This document shows positions 11,101 through 46,228 of a stretch of DNA of 64,000 bases, in pieces. The stretch comes from Bolinopsis microptera (lineage: Eukaryota; Ctenophora; Tentaculata; Lobata; Bolinopsidae), in contig NC_087084.1 in NCBI RefSeq assembly GCF_026151205.1, positions 7,427,394 to 7,491,393 on the forward strand. The letters are read 5' to 3'. The position numbers were made by a program, and so were the translations under genes. The notes under the pieces are model-generated. The model saw nothing but the letters and a program-made list of their open reading frames with translations. It made no database searches and was not told the DNA's origin. Every line of letters begins with the position of its first letter. Position 1 is the stretch's first letter.

Positions 11101-13165
11101 GGCGTTTAAAAAAGGAATAGAATCAGAGGTACGAAATGAAACTTTCAACATAGCGTTCAAGGAGCCAGTTACCTTGACAACATTGCTTCTGGAGATATCC
11201 CACGTGCTAGAATCGGTAAGTTAGTAAAGTAGTATAAGTACTGACTCTTATATTAACTCTTATATAAACTCTTACTATAACTATAACTAAAACTCTTACT
11301 ATAACTATAACTCTTACTATAACTATAACTATAACTCTTACTATAATAAATATAACACAATAATACTCTCGCGCTCTCATGAGGGCCGCGTATGATAACG
11401 CCCGAACGTAGTGAGGGTGTTTGCGCGGCCTGATAGAGTGAGAGAGTATTATCAGTTATAACTATACCTAGCTGACTTATCGACTGACTCGGTAAGGTGT
11501 AAACTTCTCGGTCTCCAATTGTTTTTCGGAGTGGGGAGCGAGCTTATTATCTTTTTATTGCTGATGGGGCGTTTAGCAGGGGACCCCTGCTAAAGAGGTT
11601 TTCCCTCGAAATATGTCGTATATTTATATGCGAAATATTTAATGATATTGACCTGGGCCAGGGGTGAGGAATGTGGGGGAAGTTTTAGAGAGCGTTGAAA
11701 TAATTCAAACAAAAGTATCGGCCTGATTGTATCAGTACTTCGCTTATTGTTGTACTAGCTATCTGCTATATGTTGTATCCTAGCTATCTGCTATATGTTG
11801 TATCCTATAGCTAACAGAGCTCGACCCCTTGTATCCTAGCTATTATATTAATTGGTACTAGTTTCTGGTGGTATTTACAATAATCATCTGTACTCTCAGC
11901 CTATAAAGTTCAATCATGAAGTCACAACCGACAACTCCTATCATCTTTACCCATCATCAGGTAAATATAAGCGCTACATTTACATTTTATATGTAATCTT
12001 TGTAATCGATGTTTTGGGACAAAGTGAAAGCCTCCACTCAGTTTTTCAAACAAATAGTTGTAGTTTTAAACTGATTACAAGACTACAAATCTATTACAGT
12101 TATTAAACTATGTAAGAAATTAAGAAGTAATTGTTACGTCTCGTCCATTGTTACTCTCAGTGTCCCAAAACATCAATTATATGATCGACCCGCTCAGGCG
12201 CTCAAAAGAGCGAAAACAGATTATTATCGTTGTAATCGTCGTAATCTTTGTAATTGTCGTTGTAATCGTCGTTATCGTTGATAATCGTTGATAATCGTTG
12301 ATAATCGTTGTAATCGCTCATGTAATCGTTGTAATCTTTTTAATATTTGTAATCGATATATTCGCTATAATCGTTGTAATCGTAAAACCCTGATTTACTG
12401 CATCTATTTCCTTCCCACAAATTAGGAATTAACATATTATTAATGTGACAATTTCAAAACCCCGATTTGTCGCGGAACCTGCGTACTATCCGCGGTGTTA
12501 AGTGTTAACCTTTCCCCAGACTGATTCAACGTATGCTAGAGAATGAGAGTTCTAAAAAACGTTACCGTTTCAGCACGAGGACAGCTAGATATCAGCAAAG
12601 CGGAGTTTATGCTTGACTTTAAACCAACAAAGCTTACCTCAGCCGTTAAAAAAACTGTTAACTATTACGAACGTGCCCAAAAATTGTGAGTAGTTAAATT
12701 TATTTATTTAAATCGGGCCAGATCTTGAAATCAATATTCAATATTTACATGGGATATATGGCCTGATCGGTGCTTTAATTTCGAACTGTATAAAACATTT
12801 CTAGTATGACAGCTTGTAACTGGTAACACTAACAACACGAGGTTCCACTTGTAAATTGACATGCTGACAAAGGTTGGAGTGATACAACGTTTAAATAAAT
12901 ACCATCCCACATCTTAAAACTGTTCAATTTTCAACAGCAATATTGTAACGTCAGTTATCTGTTTGAAAGCAATTTGAAAGCAATTCTAACGTTTATCTTT
13001 AGGTTTTGAATAGAAATTGTAACGTCAGTTATTTTCAGGTTTGACAGTGAGCGGAGGAAAGTTATGGAGGAGCTATCCAACAACATCGCTACTGATCAAA
13101 CAAGAGTTAAGTTCATGAGTATGGTAATGGCTGAGGCGTTGTCAGGGAGACGAGATGAACTCTGA
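5119..13165 (+). CDS. ER-lumenal extended short-chain dehydrogenase/epimerase-like protein
   Basis: Ten exons: 5119-5247, 7246-7413, 7693-7774, 7916-8016, 8478-8595, 10702-10798, 11059-11219, 11862-11960, 12574-12685, 13039-13165; 397 residues, phases consistent. Residues 1-18 form a signal peptide (MGSTLLALVSLLVVAAHS). A Rossmann glycine motif GGNGQIG (32-38) and LNRG (55-58, Arg favouring NADP) follow. The fold continues with VDVVVDLNAF, a VYLFISPDNVYDVS strand, RAPDVIG, a YPSSARGQLDISKAEF segment typical of the substrate half of extended SDRs, and a helical tail. The C terminus is RRDEL, a KDEL/HDEL-type ER-retrieval signal, so I infer an ER-lumen enzyme or pseudo-enzyme. The usual YxxxK is FGHYK (Phe172, Lys176), so the catalytic Tyr seems replaced; other SDR groups such as CSP41-like proteins also lack it. 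The exon 7 donor is GTTAGT at 11220; the better-looking GTAAGT at 11216 would break frame. The substrate is unknown. Confidence 0.85.
5262..5535. repeat. 45-bp minisatellite in SDR intron 1, six copies
   Basis: The unit runs ACCATAGCAACAGTATACA, TTACCC(G/C)ACC, TTATATGGTAATGTA, repeated about six times directly after exon 1. Each unit carries GTATACATTACC and GGTAATGTA, so each can fold into a hairpin. Confidence 0.92.
5811..5862 (+). repeat. Dispersed repeat C, copy 1
   Basis: It shares GAACAAGAATTGCGCC, GCGGACGCTA and ATTTCCA with 49047-49108 on the same strand. Short, diverged, no ends recognised. Confidence 0.55.
6030..6570. mobile_element. Foldback/MITE-like element in SDR intron 1
   Basis: GACATCTGTCCGACAG at the left end (6033) faces CTGTCGGACAGATGTC at the right end (about 6550-6566). 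A second inward pair occurs inside (GACATCTGTCCGA at 6087, GGACAGATGTCGCC at about 6493), and GACAGCGACTCTTGTCCGA is repeated directly at about 6045 and 6520. The ends thus look like two nested copies of the same terminus. No coding sequence and no clear target duplication. Confidence 0.6.
7494..7522 (+). mobile_element. Isolated LINE 3' tail in SDR intron 2
   Basis: AATTTGAAAAGTATTTAATA followed by an A-run matches the 3' terminus of the LINE at 34447-35765 almost exactly. It is either an extremely 5'-truncated insertion or a shared tail motif. Confidence 0.45.
8849..8956 (+). repeat. Dispersed repeat A, copy 2 (SDR intron 5)
   Basis: Same orientation as 3361-3476 and roughly 85% alike by eye across the GTGCATCCTGGG core and the CATTACATAATTCT end. 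Confidence 0.75.
9512..10560. repeat. Three tandem copies of a 349-bp unit, SDR intron 5
   Basis: Copies start at 9512, 9861 and 10210 (CAGTGATTTATTATTGAAGC) and differ at only a few sites, so the expansion is recent. On the minus strand each unit holds an open frame. In the third copy (10551-10285) it gives 88 residues with a lysine-rich start, a hydrophobic segment (PLVVWYLALIVLAVAIY) and a charged Lys/Glu tail, as in a small tail-anchored membrane protein. The other two copies lack one T in the run near the start, which puts the ATG out of frame. I do not recognise the peptide and see no promoter, so coding is doubtful. Confidence 0.9.
11240..11345. repeat. ACTCTTACTATAACTATA simple repeat, SDR intron 7
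   Basis: Short imperfect tandem units of CTTACTATAACTATAA. It lies just downstream of the exon 7 donor. Confidence 0.8.
11360..11452. mobile_element. 93-bp GC-rich hairpin element, SDR intron 7
   Basis: Left arm ATAATACTCTC..GGCCGCG pairs with right arm CGCGGCC..GAGAGTATTAT, with an inner pair AACGCCC/GGGTGTT. It is much more GC-rich than its surroundings and sits inside a simple repeat. It behaves like a tiny foldback transposon; TSD not certain. Confidence 0.6.
12214..12385. repeat. GTTGTAATC-type 9-12 bp minisatellite, SDR intron 8
   Basis: Imperfect repeats of CGTTGTAATC and CGTTGATAAT over about 170 bases. A fragment resembling the AAAACCCTGATTTAC end of the small element at 17404 follows at 12383. 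Confidence 0.8.
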
Positions 13166-38331: not shown

Positions 38332-41300
38332 ATGGGCGTAGCTATCTTCGGATTCAAGATTATCGACGATGACGGGTGCATTAGTATGAAACTAGTGAGG
38401 GAGATTATAGCAGAGATGCTGGGAACATTCTTCCTAATCATCCTAGGATGTGGAGGTATATAGATAATTAACTATCAATATCATGTTAAATATTAGTATT
38501 ACAATGTAAATTGATAATTAAATTAAAAAATACAGGGTGTACCGCATAAAATGACGACAGTTTTTAACAAGTTTCAATATATTAAAAAACATTCCTAAAT
38601 ACATTATTTAATTTCAGTTATCACTTAAAAGCTGGTCACAGAGACGCAACCATTAATAAATAGAGTACATAAATATTGAAGTTATTACCGCATGCTTACT
38701 ATTTAAAAAACTATGTTTATGTTTTTTGTTTGTCTCAGAAATGAGACGCCAAGCTATTAGGTGATTAATTAATTACTACTGTTTCTATAATTTCTCTAAT
38801 TTCTCTAATTTGCAGGTGTACAGGGTGCTATTACTGACAAACCCGCGGACGAAATCTTGGGATCTGCCAGAATTCTTCAAATCGGATTCGCTTTCGGTCT
38901 AGGTTAGTCATGTTAACCAATTCATTAAAACAAAGTTATCAATAAAACAATCAGATCAGATAATGTTAATCCTCGCCATTACTGATTGCTCACACTGACT
39001 TGCTCAGAGTTCAGACGTCTACAGTAAATTTTAAGAGTTTAAGGTTGCTTCAGTATTCATTATTCATTATTCATTATTCATTATTTATTGCTAGCTCCAG
39101 AGTCCAGCTATAATTCAGTAACTGTGTAGTAGTAGTGTTACTATGGTTACCTGTACTTAAGTGCAACCATGTGTAGTAGTAGCACTGTTACTATTGTTAC
39201 CTGTATAAGTGTAACCATGGATATACTCCTGCAGTAACTGTGTAGTAGTAGTGTTACTATGGTTACAAGTGTAGTGTTACTATGGTCCTAGGTCAATATC
39301 GTTGTACTCAGCAAGACCAATGAGTACGACCGAATTCGGTGAAAAGTTTGAAAATTTGTCATTTTAAACATTTTTAGCGCAGCCAGTTTAGCGAATTTAT
39401 GCTAGATTGAATCATAAACGTTCTTCGTATAATGACAATAGAATCGATTTAGGACACATTGGCGGGCCCGCCGGCACTATAACACTATAATCATCACACT
39501 ACACTCATGTTTGAATTTTGAGAATTCCTTCCGTCCCCGGGCAGAGCAAGGCTCCGTACTGTCTTCATAAGTTTATTTCGGTTTCCCTTGATACTTTAAT
39601 ATTGAGGGTAATTTTGGTCTTGGTCTTGATTGCAAATTCGATACTTTGAGTTTGATACGTTTTGAGTTCCATGAGTACGGCTGAGTGCCACTAATTTTTT
39701 TGAGGACGCGGTGCTATCATAACATCACATAGAATAACTAGTTGAAGACAGGCACAGACCGCCGCAGACCTAGCCGGGATATCGAGAGAACGCGGAGAGA
39801 GTGTACATATAATTTCAAATTCGGAGGAAGTGAAAGTCTAAATGTGTTGACTGTTGTCATCACTTCATTACCGCAGGGAAAAATTACTTTCCGGTTTGCC
39901 GTTTGATTGTTCACTTAATTTTGAATATTATCATATTAAAGATGACATGATTATAAACATGTTAATTCAGATTGAAGTTGGTCTATGTTTAATAACTTTA
40001 TCAATGATTCTGAAGTAGCAGTAAAGTTGGTAGTAGATATCTTAACGGTGAACGGCTTTACCAACTGCTCGTTATCCTCTCATTGCTTATTGACGTTGAC
40101 ATCATGATTCATGAGACTTAGACTTTAATCAGTGACTGTTATTAAGGGCCATCCTACCATTCATTGAGATACAAGGATTTCTTGCATTGTACTACCAATT
40201 GTATTTGCGGATCTAACTTTCGGTTTAGTGGCCACAGTTTCTCAGCAAGTTTGCAATATAAGGTAGGTTTCCACCGTTATAATGTCGAATGAATAAATAA
40301 GCTAGAATCTCAAGCTTGGAAGAATGTATTTGCACCTATTCAATTATTTACTTGGTTTCGAGGTTAACTTTACATTCATTAAATGATACTAACGTAGTCG
40401 ACAGAAGTTTATGGCTTATGTATCTCGTCAGAGAAAAACTGTTCGCTGCTCACATTGCGGATCAATTCTCAAGGACAATAACAAGAAACAACATGAAAGT
40501 CGACGTGATCACAGGTTAAATTTTATTGCATTTGCAGTATCATGCTTTTATGCCGATTATTTTTTTCTTTCGAGACCATTTATTTTTATGATCACTGCTC
40601 ACATGAGTATGACGTCAGTGTGCAAAAAACCAGGACCTATCTTGATTTTTCACGTGAGCTAAGATAGTCAGGGGTAGGATTCTATTGAACTTTCGTGCTC
40701 CAATTATTATCTGCTTGAATAGCTGCATCATGATCGACGTTACTAATTTAAACAGTTGTAAAACTGATTCGCGAAAATTGCTTCAGAAACCAGCAAGTGC
40801 TCTGGACAACTGTACGGGACAATTTACCAGGACAACAGACGTTACCACTACGCAGTTTGGCCGCGCCGATCTCGTCCCAACCATCTCACCCTCCTTCATC
40901 GAGAGGAGGGTTTCCTTTCGTTGCAACAAGACCTCATTTGTTTACCTTACCAGTGCAACCATTAGTCACACTTCCTCCAGGTCCCATTCATCCAGTAGCT
41001 CTTCAGCCATTGATAGCTGGTCCAAGTGTCCCCAATACCCAGATTGGTGCAGTGATAGCTGGTCCAAGTGTCCCCAATACCCAGATTGGTGCAGTGATAG
41101 CTGGTCCAAGTGTCCCCAATACCCAGATTGGTGCAGTGATAGCTGGTCCAAGTGTCCCCAATACCCAGATTGGTGCAGTGATAACTGGTCCAAGTGTCCC
41201 CAATACCCAGATTGGTGCAGTGATAACTGGTCCAAGTGTCCCCAATACCCAGATTGGTGCAGTGATAGCTGGTCCAAGTGTCCCCAATACCCAGATTGGT

Positions 41301-44300
41301 GCAGTGATAGCTGGTCCAAGTGTCCCCAATACCCAGATTGGTGCAACTTTCAGATTTCCTATAGCAACTATAACATCAGCTTCAGTTCCTCGCCTCAGAT
41401 CGGTAACAGGAGTTTCCACAAATCTAGGCTCTCAGCCGAGATCATCAGTTGTCACCTTAAATCCAATATTACCGGCCACACGTGCAGTACCATTACTGCC
41501 TTCTTCGTCACGCCACAATTCAGGAAATGTAACATCATCTACAGCTGTGGACAATCAAACTGCTTGGAACAATGCTGTTTATTGGTTGAATTTTCTCAGT
41601 CCTAGTACTCAACAATCATCCGTTCAACACACCATGGGCCAGAATTTACAGCAAACAGTACACAGACCCTCTGTTGCCTTCTCGGGTTTGTCACGTGGCG
41701 TCATTCCTCCAGGTCTTCGAGCAACAGTGGCAATACCACCAACATTGAATGCTAATAGTAGAATTAACAGACGTGGTCATACAGATATACTTCGAACAGA
41801 CCAAAAACTAAATCTTCTGCAAAATGCTACATGTATTAGTGACATAACCACAGCAGAACCACTCTTTCGAATAAATAATCAGGGCGATATTGAATGCTTA
41901 TGCTGTGATAACACCTCATTTGGAGTGCCAGCCTCAGTCTACACTGCAACAAATGGAACCAATAGACGCACAACTACTCGACGCTGGAAAGACATGAAAA
42001 GTGCCTTAAAACGTCACATACAGTTACCAAGACATCAGGAAAATGCAAAAACTTACTTGACAAGGCAGAATTTAATACCCTCATTCATAACTTCGGATAC
42101 AGGGGCCGGGCTTAACTTGATTAGAATGGTGTATGAGAATGTAAAATCCCAGAGATCATACGCAAGTTTCCCGCTTTCGGTTGCAGCACGTTACCAGGAA
42201 AAAACCAATGTTGGGTTTCAAAATCATTCCCCTGCATTTCCACCTAAGATTATAGATTGTGGATATGACTTACTTCTCGGGAGGTTTCAAGCTTACTTAT
42301 CCTCACTTACGCCATTTGGGACAGTAATAACTTTTGGTATTTCCTGTGATAAAGATAAATCTCAGAGTAGGTCAAGGCAACTAGCTGGTTTTCGTTTTCC
42401 TTGCTTCGATAGTTCGTTATCCACCCCTTTCATTAACTATGTTTACGTTGGACATCCAGCATGTCAACAGTTTGACGGGTTCTATCTCTCAACGAAAATA
42501 AAAGAACAGTTGACTCAATACGGAATCCTGAATACCCAGTTTACAGAGGGCTACTCTGGGTCAGCTTATGACGGTCAATACCTAAACTTGAAACTTCACG
42601 ATCATTTGAGAGCATCTTACGGTATAAATAGCGACGACCCTCAAGCAACTGAAGTTTGGGACGGGGCACATATCGTGGACCTCATCTTCAAGCATGCATT
42701 AAGAAACTCTTGGGCTGTAGAAAATGTACGTTATATCGTCAAGAAAGTCAATAATATCCTGAAGAATAACATATTTGAGACATATCTCGCCTCATCTCGC
42801 TCCATGGGGACTCCGTTCCTGAAACCCAAAACTTTAAAAGATTTAAAGTTCTTAAAACATGGTTTAGACCAGCTAGAAACTTTTCAGAAAATGAAGCCTG
42901 TGATAGTTGATGCCCTAACAAATGTTTCAAATTCAACTCATAAATTAGCATCTACATGTAAAGCCTATTTAACTCAAATAAACTGTCCAAGATTCGGCCT
43001 AATCCTGTCATTCCTTATAGATGTTATGAAGCCTTTATCTGCATTCAGCCTAAAATTTCAGGATAAGTTCCTCTTTGTTCATCAGTATTATAATCTCACG
43101 GTGATGCTGAAGGAGTTTTTGTCCAATATTCATCTTTCCTATGATACAACTACAATGCCTGTGGACCAAAGATTCATTTTCAGTCATTTTTGTCGGACAG
43201 TTCAATCTGGACCATCGCAGTACTTTGGTCCTCGTTATTTGCTCCGCCAAGGAAGATTTACTCCTACTACATTCCCAGATACAGTGAGAGCAGCAGTTCA
43301 ATGTTGTAACCGATTTATTGATCTCCTAAAGAGATATACTCTTGGTTACTGGTTTGCGAATGGGTACTGGAAAGATGATACAAAACGGCTTCTACCAAAT
43401 TGTGCCGCATTGTTAAACTTCTTGACGGACGACATTGAAGAACAGAAAAAATCATTTATAACACGAGGTCATGAAATGTGTGCTGACTGTGAGAACTTTT
43501 ACCCTGAAGCTCGCCAAGCCGAACATTCTACACAATGCACCTCTAATATTTGGCTGACAGTCCCGTCTTTATTACCAAATTATAATCCAAACAAAGGTCT
43601 GAATTTGGAAATACTTAAGCAGCTCATTCCTTCGAGTTTAAGGCACCATATAACTCAAGTTGCCCTGCATGATTTGAAAGTGCAATTGAACTTAGCAAAG
43701 CAAGAAGTAACCCGTCGAAATCTCGTTGTAACCTTTGACCGTGTTGTCAAATGTTTATTCACATCTCGCAGTTACTGGGACAAGTGTCTAAAGGGTGCCC
43801 TATTCCTCTTAGTCAAAGTTATGACTATCCCTACATCAGAGGCACTTATGGAAACATTTGGATCCATAATGGAGACATATCATGGTCGCTTCTCCAACGG
43901 CGATCCAAAATTCGATGATACAAGACTGCAGAAAGAGATGTTTTTAAAGCTTAATGGGCCGCCACTGATTGTTGCTGAACCGTTCTTTAAGAAAATCTTG
44001 GAGAAATACAGAGCGGAAGGCGGTCACAGGTTCGCTCATGAACAAACCCATTTAGCTAGACTCACTGCATCATCACTTACAGTAAAACGTCTGCAAAGAG
44101 AGGCAGCAAGCGACTCAAGTAGAACTGTGTGCATTGAATTTTCGTAAGCGGCTTACTAACAACTATAAAGCATGTGATAGATAAACATAATGTAGGTATA
44201 AGGAACTTCACCCTTTCATTCTATTGCTTTTAAGAGTCAAATACGTTAGCATGTAGAAAGTTCTAATCAGAATAAAGGTTTGTTCATGACCGTTTGCCAT

Positions 44301-46228
44301 GTTATTGTTTTAGAATTATCACGAGATTAATTCATGATACGTTTCATTAATTAATTTTGACGAAATTTCCATTAATAAAAAGTACATTAGAGTTTTTATT
44401 CCCTTGTTGACATGTATTGTTTAAATTAAAATCTCTGCTCTTCCACACCAGCTGATCTTGGTCCAACGGCGGTCAGTAAAATGTTAATTAAATAAAGTCA
44501 CGGTTAATTAAATTTACGGTTAATTCGATAATTGGTAAGTAAGACATTTGGAAAGTCTGAGTACGACCATTCGAAAAAGATATTGACCTGGGACTATGGT
44601 TAGAAGTGTAACCATGGATATACTCCTGCAGGTATTGGTGGAATAGTACATCTCTTTTCTGACATCAGTGGAGGACAACTCAACCCCGCTGTTTCATTCG
44701 GACTCTTCTTTGCTCGTAAACTCTCTCTGTACCGTGCTGCTATCCTCTCTGTTGCTCAGATCATTGGTGGAATCATCGGTGCTGGTGAGATTTGTTAATT
44801 ATTATACGTGGGGTGGGCTGGAATGAACTTTATCGTGAATGAATTAACAATGTTAATGTTATCATGATTAACATGGTTATGTCGAAACGTGAATAGTCCA
44901 ATGGTGACCGTTTCTAACCACTTGTTTAGCGTTGTGGAAATCTACTGAAATTGAAACTATAAAATTTCGAAATGCTTGGTCCGAAGTATTGATAATATAT
45001 GATTTATGAACTTTTTTTTATTTCTTGATTGACGGACTTATTTCTTTAATAAGGTGAATTAACTAATACTAATCACCCAACCTCGCAGTGGTCCTGAAGA
45101 TTGTGTTCGGCAGTACTCCAGGAGTAGTCGCCATGTCCGTCTCCGGATTTAAAGGACTGATTCTTGAGTTCCTCGGTGCTCTCTTCCTGGTTCTGACTGT
45201 CCTGGCTACTATTAATGACAAGAGAGGGCACGCTGCTGGGTACCTCCAACCCCTTTCTATCGGTATCGCTATCTTTGTCGCTCACATGTTCCTCGTGAGT
45301 ACTGCCCTCTTTGTAATTAGCTTATAATTAGCTCATAATTGGTTTATAATTGATTTATAATTAGTTTATAATTGGTTTATAGTTGGTTTATAATTGGTTT
45401 ATAATTGGCTTATAATTAGTTTATAATTGGTTTATAATTGGTTTATAATTAGTTTATAATTGGTTTATAATTGGTTTATAATTGGCTTATAATTAGTTTA
45501 TAATTGGTTTATAATTGGTTTATAATTGGTTTATAATTGGTTTATAATTGGTTTATAATTGGTTTATAATTGATCCCTTATCCTTTGTCCCAATTTATAA
45601 TTGGTCCCTTGTCCCTTGTCCCAATTCATAATTGGTCCATTATCCCTTGTCCCAATACAATTTTCATATACCTCGTTTATATATGGTTGCCTCCTTCAAT
45701 TTCGTCATTTGAGCATTAAGTATCTAATCCCAATAAGTATATTTCCATACACCTTGTTTATTTATGGTTATCTTCCTCAGATTCCTTTGACTGGATGTGG
45801 AATTAACCCTGCCCGAGCCCTCGCTACCAACATTGTAGCTGGAGAGATTAAGGGAGACTTCTACGTAAGCTCATTTTATCACAATGCTGGCAAGCATTAC
45901 CGTCGCCCTTATATTCATTAACTTAATTGATTTATTAGCTTTAGATTAATTATATCTTGATGTGTTTTGTTATGGGTTGTTGCAACTTAAGTCTTGTTGA
46001 TGCAATTAATGTTAGATGGATTGTTAAATTTCACTACACGGAACTAGTGATTTCAACAAAACTATGATCTATTTTGTCCTCTACTTTACTTTACTACCAC
46101 AGGCTTACATTCTTGGGCCCATCCTCGCATCTGCTATTGGTGGTCTCGTCTACGAGTTCGTCTTCAACCCCCACTACGCCTCCGCTTACGAAGGCATTGA
46201 GAATGGAGAAGGAGAGGAGATGAAATAG
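38332..46228 (+). CDS. Aquaporin, water-selective type, complete
   Basis: Six exons: 38332-38455, 38816-38902, 44632-44784, 45089-45294, 45781-45864, 46103-46228, phases 1,1,1,0,0; 259 residues, the usual length. Membrane channel of the MIP family. NPA boxes are GGQLNPAVSFG (Asn88) and TGCGINPARA (Asn199). The aromatic/arginine filter by alignment to human AQP1 is Phe68, His187, Cys196, Arg202, the classical water-only set; spacings (F-N 20, H-C 9, C-R 6) match exactly. Cys196 corresponds to the mercury-sensitive Cys of AQP1. Hydrophobic segments fit six helices (e.g. IIAEMLGTFFLIILG, GLILEFLGALFLVL, YILGPILASAIGGLVYEF). The short N terminus starts MGVAIFGFKII; the tail is acidic (GIENGEGEEMK). 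Intron 2 (5.7 kb) is long because a hAT transposon sits in it; the other introns are about 240-490 bases. Confidence 0.97.
39119..39278. repeat. GTAGTAGTGTTACTATGGTTAC minisatellite in aquaporin intron 2
   Basis: Imperfect units of GTGTAGTAGTAG and GTTACTATGGTTACCTGT occur three to four times. The hAT element inserted in the last unit; the interrupted sequence resumes at 44593 (ACTATGGTTAG). Confidence 0.8.
40411..44147 (+). CDS. hAT-type transposase with zinc fingers and a 14-residue repeat array
   Basis: Two exons, 40411-40514 and 40787-44147 (phase 2, donor ACAG|GTTAAA, acceptor CTTCAG), give 1154 residues. Exon 1 is a C-x2-C-x11-H-x5-H finger (CSHCGSILKDNNKKQH...H). The large exon has eight repeats of GPSVPNTQIGAVIA (about residues 110-221), then a second Cys/His zone (ECLCCDN...HIQLPRH), an RNase H-like core with ITFGISCDKDKSQSRSRQLA near 553 and WDGAHIVDLIFKHAL near 658 (compare the DGAH/CxxH segment of ZNF862-like hAT proteins), and a C-terminal dimerisation-like stretch IPTSEALMETFGSIMETYHG near 1049. 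Catalytic residues cannot be fixed by eye. No stop or frame break; possibly active or recently domesticated. Exon 1 could be missed by a single-exon annotation. Confidence 0.85.
41012..41345 (+). repeat. 42-bp coding minisatellite, eight copies, in the hAT transposase
   Basis: Copies of GATAGCTGGTCCAAGTGTCC..CAATACCCAGATTGG..TGCAGT differ only by G/A in GCT versus ACT (Ala/Thr). They keep the frame exactly (42 bases, 14 residues). The unit has no stop in several frames on both strands, which creates long shadow open frames there. Confidence 0.97.
45315..45585. repeat. 12-bp minisatellite in aquaporin intron 4
   Basis: About 22 units of TTTATAATTGGT with A/G and T/C variants fill the middle of the 486-base intron. 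AT-rich, no coding. Confidence 0.95.

Follow-up and report, generated by a model that had tools for sequence, protein, structure and literature searches.

In a 64,000-nucleotide window of the ctenophore Bolinopsis microptera (contig NC_087084.1, positions 7,427,394 to 7,491,393 of the forward strand; positions below count from its first letter), we found a complete transposon of 5,306 bp at 39287-44592, flanked on both sides by an exact 8-bp target site duplication (TSD), ACTATGGT. It lies within an aquaporin intron, and we consider it likely to be a cut-and-paste DNA transposon from a divergent hAT-like branch, mobile in the recent past and apparently autonomous. Another chromosome carries a second full copy, 5,315 bp long (C1:23655606-23660920). 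Its termini fall at the same bases, and it has its own 8-bp TSD, TTGATACC, with 8/8 positions identical on the two sides. The same termini beside a different TSD fix the boundaries of the element and show that it has moved in the past. The two copies are 99.3% identical, differing by 23 substitutions over 5,304 aligned bases and by 5 indels, and since their coding changes are mostly synonymous, selection has acted on the transposase between them.

Ends, copies and coding sequence of the element

The initial annotation, made from the letters of the window, had described a young and apparently intact hAT transposon with an exact 8-bp target duplication and matched ends, and had suggested a search for identical copies elsewhere. 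The duplication is indeed exact, and the ends are matched by 14-bp terminal inverted repeats, CCTAGGTCAATATC and CCCAGGTCAATATC, in which 13/14 positions pair and which recur as identical termini in the second copy. Both full copies have the same T/C mismatch at the third position of their ends, so it was inherited and does not reflect damage to the window copy. Taken alone, the TSD could be doubted, because the local repeats of the flank contain ACTATGGT at two further places, 39140 and 39256; a chance TSD in a repeat-rich intron was nevertheless rejected, given that the second copy bears a TSD of its own. Ten TSDs were read by eye, too few to reveal a target-site preference. Near the ends, the motif AGTACGACC occurs as a direct repeat, for which 0.02 occurrences are expected per 5,306 bp, the motif having been picked post hoc. 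An Rfam scan gave nothing at gathering score anywhere in the window.

At the DNA level the genome (264.7 Mb, 232 contigs) holds four matches to the element, namely the 2 full copies and two fragments, of 408 bp at 98.8% and 200 bp at 98.5% identity; copy counts from these searches are lower bounds. With its own TSD, only 23 substitutions and mostly synonymous coding changes, the near-identical full copy on another chromosome supports the earlier view of the element as young and structurally intact. It also supports mobility in the recent past.

The long open reading frame (ORF) of the element, 40752-44147, is genuine and spans 1,131 codons from stop to stop. The annotation had joined it to a short upstream exon at 40514/40787, which in the window copy leaves 1,154 codons open. 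We retain a two-exon gene with an open frame but disfavour this length: a 5-bp indel at 40839 puts this junction out of frame in the second copy, whereas donor 40514 with acceptor 40855 (junction 40514/40856) is open in both copies for 1,131 codons. Any other acceptor either keeps the frame open in just one of the copies or makes the protein still shorter. We infer from the two sequences that the transposase is probably 1,131 rather than 1,154 codons long. A translation start at M295 was disfavoured too, as the second copy has Ile there. The sense-oriented AATAAA that had been reported as a poly(A) signal is present downstream of the frame.

Between the two full copies, 11 substitutions fall in the 3,396 coding bases against 12 in the 1,910 non-coding ones, and 7 of the 11 coding changes are synonymous (P 0.007). 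Within residues 300-1131 all 6 of 6 changes are synonymous (P about 2e-4), a boundary set after the changes had been seen, so that the whole-gene value is the fairer one. All 5 of the 5 indels lie outside the coding exons if the acceptor is 40855 (P 0.006), an argument that is not independent of the junction, which was chosen partly for sparing both frames.

The predicted protein carries, in order, the exon-1 finger, eight 14-residue repeats, a Cx2Cx36Hx5H finger, D533, D607 and D637xxH640. An inserted stretch of some 390 residues, itself holding a CxxC..H..C finger, comes next, followed by SEALMETFGS, in which E1034 lies. Conservation was judged on a family alignment of 52 rows, partial and full, obtained by iterative search of ORFs in the retrieved loci; some rows repeat the same copies, the element's own among them, and the counts given are of rows with a residue at the position. 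R1046 is kept in 18/18 rows. In two distant paralogues (L041, L042) the shared stretch reaches nearly to the ends of the loci. The catalytic roles proposed for D533, D607 and E1034 are assigned by motif and not by structure.

We hypothesise that the two-exon gene, in sense orientation, would produce a transposase of 1,131 amino acids whose zinc fingers, by analogy with known systems, would bind the 14-bp ends and the subterminal sequence. Cutting would be performed by a D533/D607/E1034 centre aided by D637xxH640, and insertion would take place across an 8-bp stagger that host repair could turn into the 8-bp TSD. This transposase, or a close relative, may also move a family of short elements with the same 14-bp end. 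The coordinates of the features are collected in the table.

Table. Positions of the transposon, its putative gene and motifs, and the surrounding aquaporin exons in the window.
Feature	Position	Strand	Evidence or remark
Complete transposon, 5,306 bp	39287..44592	+	99.3% identity to second full copy
Left TSD ACTATGGT	39279..39286	.	8/8 identical to right TSD
Right TSD ACTATGGT	44593..44600	.	8/8 identical to left TSD
Left terminal inverted repeat CCTAGGTCAATATC	39287..39300	+	
Right terminal inverted repeat CCCAGGTCAATATC	44579..44592	-	same 14 bp terminate the ~600-bp short elements
Subterminal motif AGTACGACC	39323..39331	+	direct repeat at 44560-44568
Predicted exon 1, 34 codons + 2 bases, C-x2-C-x11-H-x5-H finger (residues 13-34)	40411..40514	+	0 substitutions or indels relative to second copy
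Proposed intron, GT..AG	40515..40855	+	contains 2/5 inter-copy indels
Predicted exon 2, remainder of the 1,131-aa transposase and stop	40856..44147	+	
42-bp (14-aa) in-frame tandem repeat, 8 units	41011..41345	+	unit number equal in second copy
BED-like finger C382-x2-C385-x36-H422-x5-H428	41895..42035	+	pattern, without Pfam match
D533, proposed catalytic Asp 1	42348..42350	+	10/10 alignment rows
D607, proposed catalytic Asp 2	42570..42572	+	12/12 rows
D637-x2-H640, C/DxxH motif	42660..42671	+	D in 12/14, H in 14/14 rows
E1034, proposed catalytic Glu in SEALMETFGS	43851..43853	+	17/17 rows
AATAAA, candidate poly(A) signal of transposase mRNA	44271..44276	+	from the sequence
Aquaporin exon upstream of insertion	38816..38902	+	read by eye
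Aquaporin intron, 5,729 bp (415 bp once element and one TSD are removed)	38903..44631	+	read by eye; Pfam on flanking exon
28-nt exact duplicate of acceptor region 44604-44631	39207..39234	+	donor side of element
Aquaporin NPA exon	44632..44784	+	Pfam MIP, E 8.5e-12
Next aquaporin exon	45089..45294	+	Pfam MIP, E 7.3e-9

Short elements with the same ends

At least 18 short elements of about 600 bp carry the 14-bp end of the transposon. When the genome was scanned for the left end, allowing one mismatch, 89 forward and 97 reverse sites turned up, the reversed control yielding 35 and 50. Among the matches listed, apart from the many that are CCTAGCTCAATATC, we observed inward-facing pairs, mostly about 600 bp apart. 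Of the 50 matches listed for one short element, 19 span all 605 bp, 18 of them at 93% identity or more (rounded, the query included) and one at 79%. The short elements fit the traits of miniature inverted-repeat transposable elements (MITEs), being non-coding, 570-608 bp long and bounded by conserved 14-bp inverted ends and a TSD.

Nine such regions were read. Seven are single insertions, each with a TSD of 8/8, although other DNA interrupts two of those (L053 and L054). A composite makes up the eighth (L060), its outer flanks matching at 8/8 positions and its two elements, taken singly, at 3/8; the ninth (L061) has one exact end, for which the 761 bp read contain no partner. At L060:52-1626 (C7:10892481-10894055) the two short elements are identical at 570/570 positions and enclose 435 bp of other DNA, with the TSD TTCTCAGC found only on the outside. 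Judging from its sequence, this region looks like a composite (macrotransposon) insertion, which would imply very recent activity. The transposon is itself low in copy number and apparently coding-intact, its ends are exactly known and a family of short elements matches it, so that its activity, which may extend to the present day, is directly testable.

The 14-mer CCTAGCTCAATATC is frequent among the left-end matches listed genome-wide and perhaps belongs to another repeat family. Within one short element, L054:986-2311 (minus strand) contains an ORF of 441 amino acids that appears reverse transcriptase-like by eye. In the window, a 61-bp piece at 11597-11657 is 95% identical to an end of the short element of ~605 bp.

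The aquaporin host gene and the C13 interval

The placement of the element inside an aquaporin intron, in sense orientation, had also been proposed in the initial annotation and was corroborated by the two downstream exons, both of which match Pfam MIP. The right TSD ends 31 nt before the NPA exon. Moreover, the last 28 nucleotides of the intron are duplicated upstream of the element, and the insertion therefore separates two copies of the acceptor region. An assembly search with 44601-45300 gave a single locus and no empty allele, together with three weaker matches at 73-76% on C7, which are probably other aquaporin genes. Most simply, the placement is a tolerated insertion, and its position, 31 bp from the acceptor and adjoining an acceptor duplicate, makes it a natural test of how well intronic insertions are tolerated.

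Four loci (L037-L040, 30 kb read) of the interval C13:9.81-9.93 Mb contain the two fragments of the element along with parts of related transposases; the fragments are not ordered as one broken copy. ORFs of at least 85 amino acids number 33 on the minus and 11 on the plus strand (n=44). A Pfam scan, which took in 11/11 plus and 16/33 minus ORFs, found domains of transposable element (TE) type on the minus strand only (DDE_Tnp_4, DDE_1, Dimer_Tnp_hAT and Exo_endo_phos_2, with HTH_Tnp_Tc5 just below cut-off), the other matches being a C2H2 finger and one chance-level match per strand. The interval could be a TE-collecting, one-strand locus resembling a PIWI-interacting RNA (piRNA) cluster. This is a lead only, because at 60 amino acids the bias is weak (71 minus vs 57 plus) and strand imbalance is also seen in other retrieved loci.

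Affiliation of the transposase and rival readings

The copy in the window might be inactive, with both copies recent yet dead or silenced, for instance through a loss of frame in one of them by the 5-bp indel at 40839. We think this somewhat unlikely: acceptor 40787 does leave the second copy out of frame, only two full copies were found (a lower bound), and the two fragments lie in the TE-rich C13 interval, whose recognised pieces lie on one strand and which could be a silencing locus, but acceptor 40855 leaves both copies open and the coding changes are mostly synonymous. The insertion could also alter aquaporin expression, either by ending transcripts at the sense AATAAA at 44271, which shares the orientation of the gene, or by diverting splicing into the 28-nt duplicate of the acceptor region at 39207-39234 on the donor side. 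The last 31 bases of the intron, acceptor included, fall beyond both the element and its TSD, and we regard such an effect as quite improbable.

The hAT label given to the transposase at the outset is plausible, not proven, and on balance we lean towards membership. In its favour are the 8-bp TSD, found at 8/8 in both full copies, the short inverted ends, which at 14 bp fall within the hAT range of 10-25 bp (PMC3942097, in part), and the D, D, C/DxxH and E residues, which were assigned by motif and are conserved in the family alignment; the order finger, D, D, DxxH, long insertion and SxAxxE is hAT-like as well. A profile comparison (hhalign) of the family C-terminus with a shorter Hermes-centred hATC alignment scored 18.3, a value reached by 0/100 shuffles (best 16.2), and sets IPTSEALMETFGS on IPASSAASERTFS and E1034 on the Glu of ASERTFS; this comparison is suggestive only, because it was designed after two earlier ones had failed.

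A number of results weigh against reading the element as an intact hAT transposon that serves the short elements. The long ORF matches 0 Pfam families by hmmscan, and eight paralogue ORFs match no transposase model in the Pfam scan, whose nominal limit was E 10 with filters that remove most matches above 0.1. All Pfam zinc-ribbon and zf-BED scores of exon 1 are below cut-off (15.6 bits for its finger against zf-BED, where 20.6 are needed; zinc-ribbon scores better). The element is absent among the 150 scored of 365 candidate Dimer_Tnp_hAT (PF05699) matches in its own genome, the PDB gave only a chance-level match by sequence (E 1.6) and none by profile, and a single peptide pattern each found no relative in IMG/VR and GTDB genomes. 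Two hhalign comparisons stayed within their shuffles: the family C-terminus against an hATC alignment centred on L063, a canonical hAT of the same genome, scored 14.3 (reached by 11/60), and the N-terminal half of the catalytic core, compared with part of the L063 hAT, scored 13.3 (reached by 9/60). A single-sequence AlphaFold model of residues 498-1103 has a mean predicted local distance difference test (pLDDT) of 37, too low for a reading of the RNase H fold that in hAT transposases is split by an all-alpha insertion domain. The termini of hAT elements usually read YARNG. Those of our element are CCTAG/CCCAG, a CCY terminus unlike that consensus; position 2 is C in the two full copies as well as in every short element read. 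Within residues 35-299, only 1/5 changes between the copies is synonymous and 4/5 alter the protein. By blastn and tblastn the element and the short elements have nothing in common beyond the 14-bp end; since only this end is shared, we infer rather than observe their movement by this transposase, and a related transposase could do it. Hermes W182, described in part of PMC4763223, lacks a counterpart, there being no Trp two residues past the first Asp, and the 5.3 kb of the element slightly exceed the 2.5-5 kb that a passage of PMC3942097 gives for hAT elements. In a literature search that did not cover Repbase, no published element was tied to this transposase or to these ends.

These results raise the alternative that the transposase comes from a different group whose TSDs are also about 8 bp long (P, KDZ/Zisupton or Merlin) or forms its own superfamily, its hAT-like motifs being convergent or common to a wider group. 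Merlin elements generate TSDs of about 8 bp. Beyond the missing hAT profile match, the two of three profile comparisons within shuffles and CCC..GGG termini that differ from the usual hAT ends, the alternative is compatible with DxxH being common to hAT, Kolobok, P, MuDR and Dada, as part of PMC3706591 reports, and with Zisupton and Dileera also generating 8-bp TSDs, according to a section of PMC12730594. We nonetheless judge it rather unlikely. The long ORF has no Pfam match whatever, so nothing favours any other named family; SxAxxE aligns with Hermes around the last Glu in the Hermes-centred comparison; and hAT transposases have the same succession of finger, D, D, C/DxxH, long insertion and E in the account that PMC4763223 gives in part.

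A wider hypothesis, which we hold doubtful, is that this transposase belongs, together with its paralogues in the genome, to a deep branch apart that escapes profile libraries and amounts either to a major group within hAT or to an independent superfamily making 8-bp TSDs. It would be young, with satellite short elements and composite insertions of its own, and fragments of it would already have ended up at C13:9.81-9.93 Mb, in a locus that collects TEs on one strand and could supply small-RNA silencing. Should such a branch exist, the hAT and BED profiles now in use count too few elements of this sort.

Compared with known systems, the element resembles Merlin, P and KDZ (Zisupton/Dileera) transposons in its TSD of about 8 bp. 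It also resembles P in the DxxH motif (PMC3706591, in part), and differs from all three in that the long ORF matches none of their Pfam transposase models. The short elements recall the hAT MITEs of BuT2 in Drosophila willistoni, which have conserved ends and TSDs and share their ends with a full-length element; the BuT2 MITEs seem to have arisen from BuT2 by internal deletion, whereas here only the 14-bp end is shared (PMC3942097, in the portion on these MITEs). From hAT transposases such as Hermes, Ac and Kat1 ours differs in giving no hmmscan profile match to the dimerisation domain, in its 1,131 residues and in its CCY termini. It is like them in the 8-bp TSD, the short inverted ends, the Cx2C..H finger ahead of the catalytic core and the series D, D, C/DxxH, long insertion and E, with the Glu within SxAxxE. 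Hermes and Kat1 each have a BED finger together with DDE residues, CxxH and, ahead of the Glu, an insertion domain (passages of PMC4763223 and PMC10368747), and for Kat1, with D310, D377, C402xxH405 and E895, the likeness extends to the D1-D2 spacing, 74 in our element, and to the long insertion (PMC4763223, in its part on Kat1).

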